From an uncultured SAR86 cluster bacterium (lineage in GTDB: Bacteria > Pseudomonadota > Gammaproteobacteria > Magnimaribacterales > D2472): 64,000 bases of DNA. Below are positions 40,901-44,490 of the stretch, piece by piece (position 1 is the first letter of the stretch; every line of letters begins with the position of its first letter). The notes below the pieces were generated by a model that was given only the letters and a program-made list of their open reading frames with translations, searched no databases and had not been told where the DNA came from. The DNA lies in the NCBI GenBank assembly GCA_902594515.1, contig CACJML010000003.1:1-64000 (forward strand). The letters run 5' to 3'. The translations under genes and the position numbers were made by a program.

Positions 40901-41119
40901 TCTAAGTCTATTTTCTAGTGGCTTTGCTATTAATCTAGATGCGTCATTTGGAGAGGCTCCATCGAGAAAGACCGAAACACTTACCAGGGGAAGCTGGATA
41001 CTTGGATCTGCAGCAACGGGAATGATCGTGCGAGAGTAACTTCCAGCAATTAAAACTAGCAAGGCAATAGTTAATGTTGTCTTTCCTTTGGAAAGAGCAA
41101 AATCAACTATTTTATTCAT
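37994..41119 (-). CDS. RND-family efflux permease (AcrB/HAE-type superfamily)
   Basis: 1041-residue inner-membrane proton-driven transporter with the usual two repeats of six membrane helices and two large periplasmic loops. TM4 reads GMLIDGSIVVTEYADR, so only one of the two Asp of the AcrB pair is present. TM10 reads LAGIVVNNNIVLID, with Asn where AcrB has the relay Lys940. These differences occur in several RND clades, so the pump may still be active, but it is not a close AcrB relative. It overlaps the adaptor gene by 4 nt. No outer-membrane factor gene is nearby. Confidence 0.9.
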   Translation of the reverse strand: MNKIVDFALSKGKTTLTIALLVLIAGSYSRTIIPVAADPSIQLPLVSVSVFLDGASPNDASRLIAKPLENRLRSVPGIEEISSSSTLGFARLVAEFEVGHDIDAALVDIKQAVEEVKYKLPLEAEDPQIREYSFATFPVMNLSLIGNGPLRQKVFFAKELQDQLEGIDEVLSIDVSGAPDEVLEAIIDKSKLETYGITLRDLYLAVSNNNVIIPGGAQDTGDGRFNIEVPGVFETAQDVYSIPVKVTPSAVVTLGDLGEIRRTFKDYSSYSKVNGKDAVTLEVKLREGANAIDAKRAIMSNISEFEPYLPENIEIVKTDDETIWAEKMITELQGNIVTAIFLVMILVVASMGVRVGMLVGLSIPFCFLLTFIVLNIANIEFNFLVMMGLLLGLGMLIDGSIVVTEYADRKISEGIQRIEAYRLASKRMFYPILSSTATTIAAFTPLIFWPGFTGQFMRFLPIAVFIVLSASLVYAMIVVPVLGAVFGQRRSSLKSGESEKTGEVVFDRISSFYSKWVRVFAKNPFETILSVFFLLSIIIISYDRFGKGTVYFPYVDPVAAEVSIRARGNFSANESKEIVEQVEKRLLQIQEIKSLYLRTGSEWFNSGGDIVGRGFFEVEEINSKGLTGQQVIDQSKQAVANIPGIIVEISEQEGGPAFENPIEIGIFGNTENEVVRVTRMVEDYAKNGVTGLANVSSTLPHPQIEWKIDVDKQKAAQLGVNISDVGAIVQMLTNGFKAGEYRPDDSRDEVEIRVRFKRDERSLTGIDDLKVPSSRGQIPISSFIKIIPKENRQSVVRRNGKFFHEIGAAGSDKDILIDEKVKELRSWVNQQEFPEGIFIQFRGQQEETEEVNSFLSVAGITAIFLMLVLLLTQFNSFYQSILILSAVFMSATGVLLGLLITGQPFGTTMTGIGIVALAGIVVNNNIVLIDTFNRLRIENQNLARYDVVVMACKQRLRPILLTTLTTIFGLLPLAAGVSLDIVARSIELGSRVVDWWQLLAQSIVFGLGFSTILTLIFTPAALMVPESIKNYFSKNTTVETS

Positions 41120-41997
41120 AGACTAGCTAGATTTGTAACAGCTACGGTTTGGCCATTTTCAACAAATCCCTGTCCTTGAACTATAAGATTTGAAAATTGG
41201 GGTATTCCACTTACCCAAAGCCCGTCGGCTGTATCTTTAATAATTTTTATTGAATGAAACTCAACTTTGCTTTCAGAATTAACAGTCCTTACACCGATAT
41301 TGCCTTCATCGGTTAGCAATAAAACGGAAGCAGTAATTTTATGGGCTAAAATCGGTTGAGTACTAATATGCATTGTACCAGTAATACCATCTCTTACAGC
41401 GCCAGTTAAATTCTCAAACTCTGCTTCAACTCTGAAGGTTCTTGTAGCGGGAGATGCGCTTTTAGATACGAATGTAAGATTAGATGAAATAGTTTCATCA
41501 GTGATTAAATCAATTTTGACCTGAAGACCTTCAAAGATATCTTTGATTTTAGCTTCAGGAACCTCAGCAACAAATGTTATAGGACTTAGCTCAATTATGG
41601 TTGCGCAGATTTCACCTCTTTGAATAAAGTTACCTGGCTTAACAATATTTTCTACATAGCCATCGAATGGGGCTTTTACTTCTGTTCGATTCAGTTCAAC
41701 TATGCCGAGTCTACACAAAAGTTCATCTTTTTTGACCCATTCACCTTGCCGAACACCTGTTGCAACCACCTCACCTGAAGTTTTTGCCTTAACTGCAACT
41801 CTTTTTTCACTTATAGCAACAGAGTTTACGCTTATGGTTGGAGAAATCATTTCCGCAATACTTTCATTAATCACAACTGAGGATAATGTTTTCTGAGCCT
41901 TTGGTGGCTCTATTTTGTCTTCTTCAAGCACGCCAGTTGCGAACCAGAAAGATACTGGTAGCAAAATTAGTAGAGCCATCCTGACGTTTTTAGACAT
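41116..41997 (-). CDS. RND periplasmic adaptor lacking the alpha-hairpin
   Basis: Membrane-fusion protein of only 293 residues, anchored by an N-terminal hydrophobic segment (MALLILLPVSFWFATG). The two lipoyl half-motifs are AKTSGEVVATGVRQGEWV (about 71-88) and EVKAPFDGYVENIVKPG (106-122). Only about 17 residues separate them; in AcrA-type proteins a coiled-coil hairpin of many tens of residues lies here. The beta-barrel and membrane-proximal domains follow. Without a hairpin, contact with a TolC-type channel would have to differ. It is coupled to the permease by a 4-nt overlap. Confidence 0.85.
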   Translation of the reverse strand: MSKNVRMALLILLPVSFWFATGVLEEDKIEPPKAQKTLSSVVINESIAEMISPTISVNSVAISEKRVAVKAKTSGEVVATGVRQGEWVKKDELLCRLGIVELNRTEVKAPFDGYVENIVKPGNFIQRGEICATIIELSPITFVAEVPEAKIKDIFEGLQVKIDLITDETISSNLTFVSKSASPATRTFRVEAEFENLTGAVRDGITGTMHISTQPILAHKITASVLLLTDEGNIGVRTVNSESKVEFHSIKIIKDTADGLWVSGIPQFSNLIVQGQGFVENGQTVAVTNLASL

Positions 41998-42098: not shown

Positions 42099-42707
42099 TC
42101 AAAGATCATATTTTTTTCTGAGCTCTTTGAATAAACTGGAATCAAGCTTTTTTGATTCAAACTCTTCAGTCTCAGTATGATCAATTGATAAATCCAAGCC
42201 CTCTTCAAGTTTAGTCAATAATTCTGCATAATTTTTTCTAAATTGGTTGATTGCATTGTATTGATTGGAGTCATTCAGAGTACTCCATCCAGTTTTGCAT
42301 CCAGCGAAATAAACTATCGGATGTGACCAATTATATTTTTTTCTTGGAGAATAAGATTTTTGAGCTTCCAAAAATGCTTCATCAGCACTCGGAATGCTGT
42401 CTGAGTATGGCTGCTTTCTTACTGCTTTCACAAACTCATTTAGAGTGGGAATGAACTCATTATTGCTAATAATAAAAGCACTAGCTTGGTTTAGCTGATG
42501 AATTGAAAAGTTTTTTAATGTACTTGCCCAGAGTCGTTTCGCAGTAATTATTTTTTCATTGGATGAGTAAATTTTAAAGAACTGATAATGATAGGCCACT
42601 TCAAACTTATAAAATAAATCCTCAATGAATTGAATTATGAGTTTCTTTTTAGAGCTCGAGATCTTTTGACCACGATAGGTCTTTTGTCTGCTCTGAAGAT
42701 TCCCCAT
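42099..42707 (-). CDS. Phage lambda replication protein P-like, candidate helicase loader
   Basis: About 202 residues. Features resembling the replication protein P family: the helical core AKRLWASTLKNFSIHQLNQA, then EFIPTLNEFVKAVRK, a Pro/Ser-rich linker and YNWSHPIVYFAGCKTGW. The last is typical of chromosomal relatives in gammaproteobacteria. I prefer the ATG at 42707, preceded by AAGAAGG, over the one at 42746, which has no Shine-Dalgarno. Either start lies inside the 3' end of the DnaT-like gene (59 or 98 nt overlap), implying co-translation. By analogy with lambda P it may load DnaB. This is inference from family resemblance. Confidence 0.6.
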   Translation of the reverse strand: MGNLQSRQKTYRGQKISSSKKKLIIQFIEDLFYKFEVAYHYQFFKIYSSNEKIITAKRLWASTLKNFSIHQLNQASAFIISNNEFIPTLNEFVKAVRKQPYSDSIPSADEAFLEAQKSYSPRKKYNWSHPIVYFAGCKTGWSTLNDSNQYNAINQFRKNYAELLTKLEEGLDLSIDHTETEEFESKKLDSSLFKELRKKYDL

Positions 42708-43440
42708 GGCCTTCTTCTTTGTTATGAGATCTTTTATTTTCTTCATTATTAATTGTATTAACTATTTCTTTTCTTTTTACAAAGTCTACAAACTTTGAAT
42801 TCCATGATTTTAGCGCTACTCCATCTTCTTCCCAAAATAGTACAAATTCTAATATATATGATTGTGAAACTTTTTTTGGGATATTAGCTAACTCAAGAAC
42901 CTCATAGGCATCACTGCTTGGTTGCCAATTTCGATGCATTTGGGTTGGAGCGCCTTTATTTGGTGATTTTTCCTTTACCCATTCTCTTCTTACAAAGTCA
43001 ACAAAAATTGAGTTCCAATTATCTTTATGCAAGCCTTTTTCGCCCCAATAAATTTTAAATTCTCGTAGCTTGTTAGCACTAAACTTTTTTGATATTCCAC
43101 CCATTAATAATACTTCGTAAACTTCTTTATTGGGTTGCCAGTTAGAATTCATTTGCTTTTTTAATCCAGCTGGAGATTTCCCAGGAAGCTTCAATTTATA
43201 AACATTATCTTTTTTTCTGGTTGCAGAAACGCTAGATCCTATGAGTTTTAGTTTCAAGAGCTTTTGAGTTGCTTGGATGAGATTTTCCCTATTTTCAAAT
43301 TTTAGGTAATTCTCTAAAGTAGAGATCAGTTCATCGAAGTTTTCAGAGGAGATTTTATTCTGCTGAATTACAGCCAAAACTATTGCTGAAGTAGGACCAA
43401 GGGTATTAATTATATCGAGTGAAACTGAAACTTCCTTCAA
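42649..43440 (-). CDS. DnaT-like primosomal protein with tandem DnaT domains
   Basis: 263 residues. The N-terminal ~85 residues look like a small helical/winged-helix domain (IINTLGPTSAIVLAVIQ). Two copies of the DnaT ssDNA-binding domain follow, at about 100-155 (NWQPNKEVYEVLLMGGI ... EFKIYWGEKG ... NWNSIFVDFVRRE) and 171-225 (NWQPSSDAYEVLELANI ... EFVLFWEEDG ... SWNSKFVDFVKRK). The tail is polar and probably disordered. It starts with TTG at 43440, directly after the aroG stop, with AGAGG about 7 nt upstream. With the downstream P-like gene it looks like a replication-restart or helicase-loading pair. Confidence 0.75.
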   Translation of the reverse strand: MKEVSVSLDIINTLGPTSAIVLAVIQQNKISSENFDELISTLENYLKFENRENLIQATQKLLKLKLIGSSVSATRKKDNVYKLKLPGKSPAGLKKQMNSNWQPNKEVYEVLLMGGISKKFSANKLREFKIYWGEKGLHKDNWNSIFVDFVRREWVKEKSPNKGAPTQMHRNWQPSSDAYEVLELANIPKKVSQSYILEFVLFWEEDGVALKSWNSKFVDFVKRKEIVNTINNEENKRSHNKEEGHGESSEQTKDLSWSKDLEL

Positions 43441-44490
43441 TTAGTTTCCTCTTCTTTTCTCAACAGCTTCAAAGCAAGCCTTTAAACATATCATCGTATC
43501 TTCTGTATTCATGCATGCGTCAGTAATACTTTGACCATATGTAAGATTTTCTGAAATTGATTGATTACCCTCTACTAAATTACTCTCTAGCATGAGGCCT
43601 CTTATGAGCAAATTACCATCAGAAATTTGATCAGCGATTTTTTGCGTAACGGCGACTTGATTTTTATGTTGCTTCTGACTATTCCCATGGCTCGCATCGA
43701 TCATGATTGACTCATTAACTTCCGCCTCTCTTAAAGCTATTAGGGTTTTCTCTACTGCTTCATTGTCATAGTTGGGATTGCTGCCACCTCTTAAAATGAT
43801 GTGAGCATCTGAATTACCTGAAGTCTTGTAAATGGAGACCATACCTTCTTTTGTATTGGAAAAGAATACGTGTGAGTGGTTAGCTGCTTGGATTCCATCA
43901 ATTGCTGGCTTGAGTGCACCAGAAGTTCCATTTTTAATACCAATAGGACAAGACAAACCAGATGCTAGCTCTCTATGTATCTGACTTTCTGCAGTTCGAG
44001 CGCCAATAGCACCCCAAGATATTAGATCAGCAACGTATTGTGGTGAAATGGGATCCAGGAATTCTGTACCTATAGGAAGCCCAATTTCAGAAATTTCTTT
44101 AAGAATTGACCTAGCTAACATCAAGCCTTTATTGGCATCAAAAGTATTATTCAGATCTGGATCGTTAATGAGACCTTTCCAACCAACTGTGGTCCGGGGT
44201 TTTTCAAAGTATACTCTCATTACTATTAAAAGATTATCTGAGAATTGATCTCTAGCATCTTTTAAAAATTTAGCGTATTCAATGGCTGATTTTTTATCAT
44301 GAACAGAACATGGTCCACATATCACAAGCAATCTATCATCTTTACCATGGAGGATCTGACTTATTTCATTTCTAGTTCCATATACAAGCGCTGCAACCTC
44401 ATCTGTAAGAGGATATTTCTCTAAAACTTCATTAGGAGTTATTAGATCAAACTTCTCTACAATTCTTGTATTGTCGGTAAGATAATTCAT
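43441..44490 (-). CDS. aroG: 3-deoxy-7-phosphoheptulonate (DAHP) synthase, class I
   Basis: First shikimate-pathway enzyme, joining PEP and erythrose 4-phosphate. 349 residues, like E. coli AroG/F/H. Motifs: VICGPCSVHD, RVYFEKPRTTVGWKG, GIGARTAESQ-like AIGARTAESQIHRE, IGIKNGT and MIDASHGNSQKQH. Which aromatic amino acid inhibits it cannot be told safely by eye. It is transcribed away from scpA, and its stop abuts the TTG of the DnaT-like gene. Confidence 0.95.
   Translation of the reverse strand: MNYLTDNTRIVEKFDLITPNEVLEKYPLTDEVAALVYGTRNEISQILHGKDDRLLVICGPCSVHDKKSAIEYAKFLKDARDQFSDNLLIVMRVYFEKPRTTVGWKGLINDPDLNNTFDANKGLMLARSILKEISEIGLPIGTEFLDPISPQYVADLISWGAIGARTAESQIHRELASGLSCPIGIKNGTSGALKPAIDGIQAANHSHVFFSNTKEGMVSIYKTSGNSDAHIILRGGSNPNYDNEAVEKTLIALREAEVNESIMIDASHGNSQKQHKNQVAVTQKIADQISDGNLLIRGLMLESNLVEGNQSISENLTYGQSITDACMNTEDTMICLKACFEAVEKRRGN

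Follow-up and report, generated by a model that had tools for sequence, protein, structure and literature searches.

The O and P proteins of phage lambda load the DnaB helicase of E. coli and act at an origin, and E. coli itself employs DnaT, together with DnaC, in the restart primosome. A pair of chromosomal proteins derived from O and P was reportedly named DopC/DopE by Brezellec et al. in 2017 (Genome Biol Evol), who are said to have proposed it as a 'third type of helicase matchmaker'. The Cellvibrionales had been singled out before as an order without both dciA and dnaC/I (Brezellec et al. 2016, PMC5109545), and a 2026 paper speaks of 'DciA or DopE protein families' and cites the 2017 DopC/DopE work (PMC13326638). 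In the structure of DnaB with lambda P, five P protomers occupy the interfaces between the DnaB C-terminal domains (CTDs), and the P lasso ends in a helix that lies against the NTD-CTD linker helix of the neighbouring DnaB (PMC6391071). The end of the lasso is taken as the C-terminus from binding and crosslinking data, and the authors regard the sequence assignment of P as tentative; DnaB is bound by residues 103-233 of lambda P, the final segment of which lies at the linker helix (PMC6391071). The LH-DH site on DnaB is common to DnaC, lambda P and DciA (PMC9912922).

Here, we describe a locus of this type from a SAR86-cluster gammaproteobacterium, found in a stretch of 64,000 nucleotides that was analysed as a whole (the window), and its fate across the SAR86 order.

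The dopC-dopE locus and its two proteins

The first-pass annotation had placed two overlapping genes between aroG and an RND system, one for a protein with two DnaT domains and one for a protein resembling lambda P, with no phage genes around them. Both reading frames are borne out and intact, and so is their setting:

43441..44490, minus strand: aroG (DAHP synthase), upstream neighbour, conserved in SAR86
42649..43440, minus strand: dopC-like gene, 263 aa, with a TTG start flush with the aroG stop codon
42099..42746, minus strand: dopE-like gene, 215 aa, lambda P family, overlapping dopC by 98 nt
41116..41997, minus strand: RND periplasmic adaptor, downstream neighbour, conserved

Met14 provides an alternative start for dopE. 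The order aroG-dopC-dopE-RND (adaptor and pump) is chromosomal and syntenic across the SAR86 order, and no phage genes adjoin the pair in the window. A profile search of the 1.36 Mb genome found no DnaT or P homologues besides this pair, and PriA is present in the genome. Rfam, promoter and terminator scans found nothing at the locus that exceeds chance.

DopC combines a winged-helix-like N-terminal domain with two DnaT domains and an O-type C-terminal tail:

43246..43440, minus strand: N-terminal helical (winged-helix-like) domain, residues ~1-65, with AlphaFold helices at 8-14, 16-27, 35-45 and 51-63
42958..43155, minus strand: DnaT ssDNA-binding domain 1, residues ~96-160 (PF17948)
42769..42942, minus strand: DnaT ssDNA-binding domain 2, residues ~167-224 (PF17948, 1.7e-18; fold match 4ou6/6aeq)
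42652..42687, minus strand: C-terminal tail (...KDLSWSKDLEL), counterpart of the lambda O C-end LTNTDWIYGVDL

Taken over the whole protein, the match to the DnaT domain PF17948 has E 1.7e-37 (127 bits, cut-off 25), and the domain borders lie close to those first put at about residues 100-155 and 171-225. AlphaFold models of DopC and DopE were built on 41- and 45-sequence alignments (pLDDT ~77 for both). Comparison of these models by Foldseek recovers both the DnaT and the lambda P family; for DopC the match is to the DnaT ssDNA-binding domain (4ou6, DnaT84-153-ssDNA, and 6aeq; probability 0.94-0.98). It is important to point out that DopC is not a primosomal DnaT of the E. coli type, as it reaches only 19.1 of the 201 bits of the NCBIfam DnaT equivalog. 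What the two share is the fold of the ssDNA-binding domain; DopC differs in its tandem domains, its other N-terminus, its P-type partner and the lack of DnaC. The N-terminal domain carries a conserved motif of the TLG-x-E-x-A type, and Trp257 in the D-x-S-W of the tail, the putative DopE-binding peptide, is invariant in alignment A4.

Like lambda O and P, the two genes are adjacent and overlap, DopE is homologous to P over the core and the C-terminal helix, and the C-end of DopC resembles that of O. DopC is also matched by phage replication initiator families. Unlike lambda O, DopC carries DnaT domains, and no alignment extends beyond the tail; an overall homology to lambda O was rejected (hhalign probability 0.2%), the agreement being confined to the C-terminal motif and gene position.

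In DopE, three parts can be told apart:

42417..42656, minus strand: N-terminal helical domain, residues 31-110, retained by the shortened DopE proteins of genus g5 and genome G201
42189..42392, minus strand: P-core, residues ~119-186 (WSHPIVY..GW), deleted in genus g5 and G201
42102..42143, minus strand: C-terminal helix, residues 202-215, DSSLFKELRKKYDL, modelled by AlphaFold as a helix at 203-212 after a low-confidence linker

The resemblance to lambda P noted at first sight is confirmed by membership in PF06992 Phage_lambda_P (E 2.4e-9, 37.6 bits, gathering cut-off 26) and by the match to phrog_109, 'P-like helicase loader' (E 5.9e-17); the family matches of both proteins exceed chance by far. 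The best PDB match in Foldseek is the lambda P chain of 9oa1, a complex with E. coli DnaB (probability 1.00, E 2.7e-3), and the model shows the lambda P fold with a C-terminal helix behind an extended linker. The Foldseek E-values are modest, which is not surprising for helical domains this short, and the top matches are the expected families. When the DopE profile is aligned to lambda P by hhalign, the match spans 180 columns, C-terminal helix included (E 7.6e-8). phmmer searches of the PDB with the single DopC and DopE proteins found nothing; fold comparison and profiles did work. The P-core is the counterpart of the part of lambda P that sits between the DnaB C-terminal domains (PMC6391071). 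The N-terminal helical domain is the candidate DopC-binding part, and the C-terminal helix, in which Leu209 is invariant in alignment A3, the candidate DnaB-gripping helix.

Relatives in the Cellvibrionales and the search for other loaders in the host group

A matching overlapping pair is found in Cellvibrionales (Pseudoteredinibacter, Haliea, Halioglobus and others) and in one genome titled Oceanospirillales. Models built from SAR86 sequences match the Cellvibrionales proteins with E-values of ~1e-40 to 1e-51 for DopE and ~1e-59 to 1e-70 for DopC, and order and overlap are identical. This pair is probably the published DopC/DopE, the Cellvibrionales being the order on record as lacking both loaders. 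The window pair agrees with it in being homologous to the Cellvibrionales pair, in consisting of adjacent chromosomal O-like and P-like genes outside a prophage, in its DopE of the lambda P family, and in its host, in which dciA and dnaC/dnaI were likewise not detected. Since the same overlapping pair occurs in Cellvibrionales, the window pair fits DopC/DopE and its kind is not new. The expectation that tandem DnaT and P proteins represent a different way to load the helicase is supported in part: it holds for a chromosomal, non-prophage module in a genome without detected DciA or DnaC, and fails for novelty as a kind, as this had already been proposed as DopC/DopE.

The SAR86 copies also differ from the 2017 pair. 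They stand behind aroG and not between radA and dnaB; the window DopC has two DnaT domains, one Halieaceae DopC three; and in parts of SAR86, DopE is truncated or lost and DopC ends in a DopE-like helix. In Cellvibrionales, radA lies upstream of dopC in ~20 loci, and dopCE abuts dnaB in 13 loci, mostly titled Halieaceae, Haliea or Halioglobus. The latter adjacency is suggestive of an interaction with DnaB or its loading.

DopC is found in 170 of 199 SAR86-order genomes, in 39 of the 40 good ones and in all 22 genera. The dopC frame is broken or shortened in two SAR86 genomes (L100:4947-5790, L146:4119-4709), by assembly error or in reality. Five genomes of family f4 (G012, G024, G032, G060 and G068) yielded neither aroG nor dopC, the locus being lost or relocated; among them, G012 is a single contig with 93% completeness.

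The DciA model PF05258 detects DciA in 298 of the 369 genomes sampled from the class. It detects none in the 199 SAR86-order genomes, and none in the genome of the window. DnaC/DnaI-type AAA+ loaders were likewise not detected in SAR86 among the matches listed for the IstB/DnaC model; nearly all listed matches over the cut-off fall in ORFs of ~430-520 aa, and for the most part they are confined to model positions ~95-194. Judging by ORF size and by their position at the first contig bases in single-contig genomes, these are probably DnaA. As the genomes are mostly MAGs and SAGs, the absence of both loaders is a statistical one. The first-pass annotation had asked whether dciA or dnaC is missing from the genome, and this outcome favours its reading. 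DciA is unrelated in sequence to DopC/DopE; it shares with them, probably, the loading of DnaB, and its LH-DH target on DnaB is also used by lambda P (PMC9912922).

Reduction of DopE within SAR86

A survey of the pair's conservation, called for by the first-pass annotation, led to the Cellvibrionales on the one hand and, on the other, to a progressive dismantling of DopE within SAR86. DopE is full-length in most genomes of families f1 and f3. In genus g5 of f1, a DopE of 142-147 aa lacks the P core and still has its N-terminal half and a C-terminal LEKLRKKHxI end, and DopC retains the S-W tail. In families f2 and f4, no P homologues were found, and in the loci read, the RND adaptor follows directly 3' of dopC, in the place of the lost dopE. 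In all 25 f2/f4 loci read, a DopE-like helix forms the extreme C-terminus of DopC. On a matrix made from true DopE tails, with f2/f4 sequences left out, the 8 f2/f4 DopC ends tested all outrank every one of 391 other SAR86-locus protein C-ends; this test followed the discovery of the pattern, and it concerns a short, basic motif. DopC scores low on the same matrix where dopE is present (median -2.1). In most of the f2 DopC shown, the S-W motif lies ~32 residues from the C-terminus and the helix follows it; the motif is unrecognisable in f4 DopC, as expected if the DopE partner is gone.

In the AroG tree, f2 stands beside f3 and f4 beside f1. A single origin of the dopE-less state, in a clade of f2 and f4, was rejected on this tree (AU p 0.004). 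The DopC tree also separates the two families, with a weak placement of f2. Overall, the tree tests favour two independent losses of dopE in SAR86. We found no description of this dismantling in the literature consulted.

Outside SAR86, the class sample contains P-like matches in genomes without DciA (G201, G243, G358 and family f106). Such matches also occur in DciA-positive genomes, so that a P homologue alone is no proof of a loader. G201 (L151:3027-4494) encodes a 346-aa DopC and an overlapping 169-aa DopE without P core. G358 (L153:3371-4528) has one fused gene of 385 aa, with winged-helix-like parts, the N-half of lambda P and a DopE-like tail, and with neither a DnaT domain nor a P core. 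The aroG-dopC-dopE synteny recurs in G243 of family f49 (L152:3948-6623); its DopE keeps the core and seems to lack the C-terminal helix, which makes it a counterexample to the rule that the tail is kept. DciA was not detected in these three genomes, nor in family f106, where a P-family gene stands at a conserved chromosomal place (L154:2834-4586, L155, L156) and is preceded by a 325-aa gene for which Pfam gave no significant match; the two may be a further domesticated loader pair. In G238, which has DciA, an initiator-like gene is accompanied by a core-less P homologue of 156 aa (L163:3075-4293), possibly on a mobile element.

A model of DnaB loading and its alternatives

We consider it very probable that DopC/DopE, a domesticated phage module of the O/P type, takes the place of DciA or DnaC in SAR86 and loads DnaB on ssDNA. 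Family membership, folds, synteny, conservation, the lack of detected alternatives and the adjacency of dopCE and dnaB in Halieaceae support this reading, and from them we infer the binding steps and the loading itself. The DnaT repeats of DopC would hold ssDNA at the DnaA-opened origin, and perhaps also at PriA-marked forks, while its C-terminal D-x-S-W tail would recruit DopE via the DopE N-terminal half. The DopE core would then wedge between the DnaB C-terminal domains, and the C-terminal helix would dock on the linker/docking-helix site of DnaB, such that the ring is kept open until delivery. In its simplest form, the chain may run from DopC (ssDNA, origin) through DopE (bridge, ring opener) to DnaB, with the helix as the grip on the helicase.

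Phage ancestry of both proteins might suggest a decaying prophage remnant without chromosomal function, a view to which we give practically no credence, as the aroG-dopC-dopE-RND synteny is fixed across the order, the frames are intact and DopC is near-universal in genomes of 1-1.5 Mb. It is also quite improbable that the module serves mainly PriA-dependent replication restart, that is, the reloading of DnaB at broken forks, with something else loading at oriC. In E. coli, DnaT domains belong to the restart primosome, the genome contains PriA, and radA adjoins dopC in Cellvibrionales, all of which would suit a restart function; yet no other oriC loader was detected, DopC is near-universal in strongly reduced genomes, and the phage prototype, lambda O/P, works at an origin. 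A module that serves both restart and oriC loading is likely, and is compatible with its proposed role as the DnaB loader of SAR86.

Going by the distribution of DopE in SAR86, the helicase contact that cannot be spared would be the C-terminal helix, and the ring-wedging core would be dispensable. Because the C-terminal segment of lambda P lies against the DnaB linker helix, the helix is probably the minimal helicase grip. We see about an even chance that DopE has been whittled repeatedly to this DnaB-gripping helix, leaving a DnaT-domain protein with a short tail as the whole loader; hypothetically, the DopE-like helix on DopC could suffice alone to load DnaB. Alternatively, f2 and f4 may now use an unrelated loading factor that escaped recognition, or their DnaB may load itself, with the DopC helix as a regulatory or structural remnant. 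That two families have lost the P body speaks for such a replacement, which we regard as rather unlikely: the helix sits at the extreme C-terminus in every one of the f2/f4 loci read, which the AroG tree places in two separate lineages, and helix and N-half are just what the short g5 DopE keeps, a pattern that one would hardly expect of a remnant. That the conserved helix binds DnaA, SSB or primase instead of DnaB is a doubtful proposition, too. The link to DnaB does derive from homology to the lambda P C-end, in a motif that is short and basic; against a different partner stand the binding of DnaB by lambda P 103-233, with its last segment at the linker helix (PMC6391071), and the inclusion of the C-terminal helix in the hhalign match of DopE with lambda P. 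If the reduction to a DnaB-gripping helix is true, it would amount to a fourth, minimal solution to helicase loading, without AAA+, DciA or P body.

The locus extends the least-studied class of bacterial helicase loaders to SAR86, an abundant uncultured marine lineage. SAR86 supplies natural deletion variants of DopE. They suggest that one short helix is the essential contact with the helicase, and with them comes a testable claim of how little protein the loading of DnaB may need.
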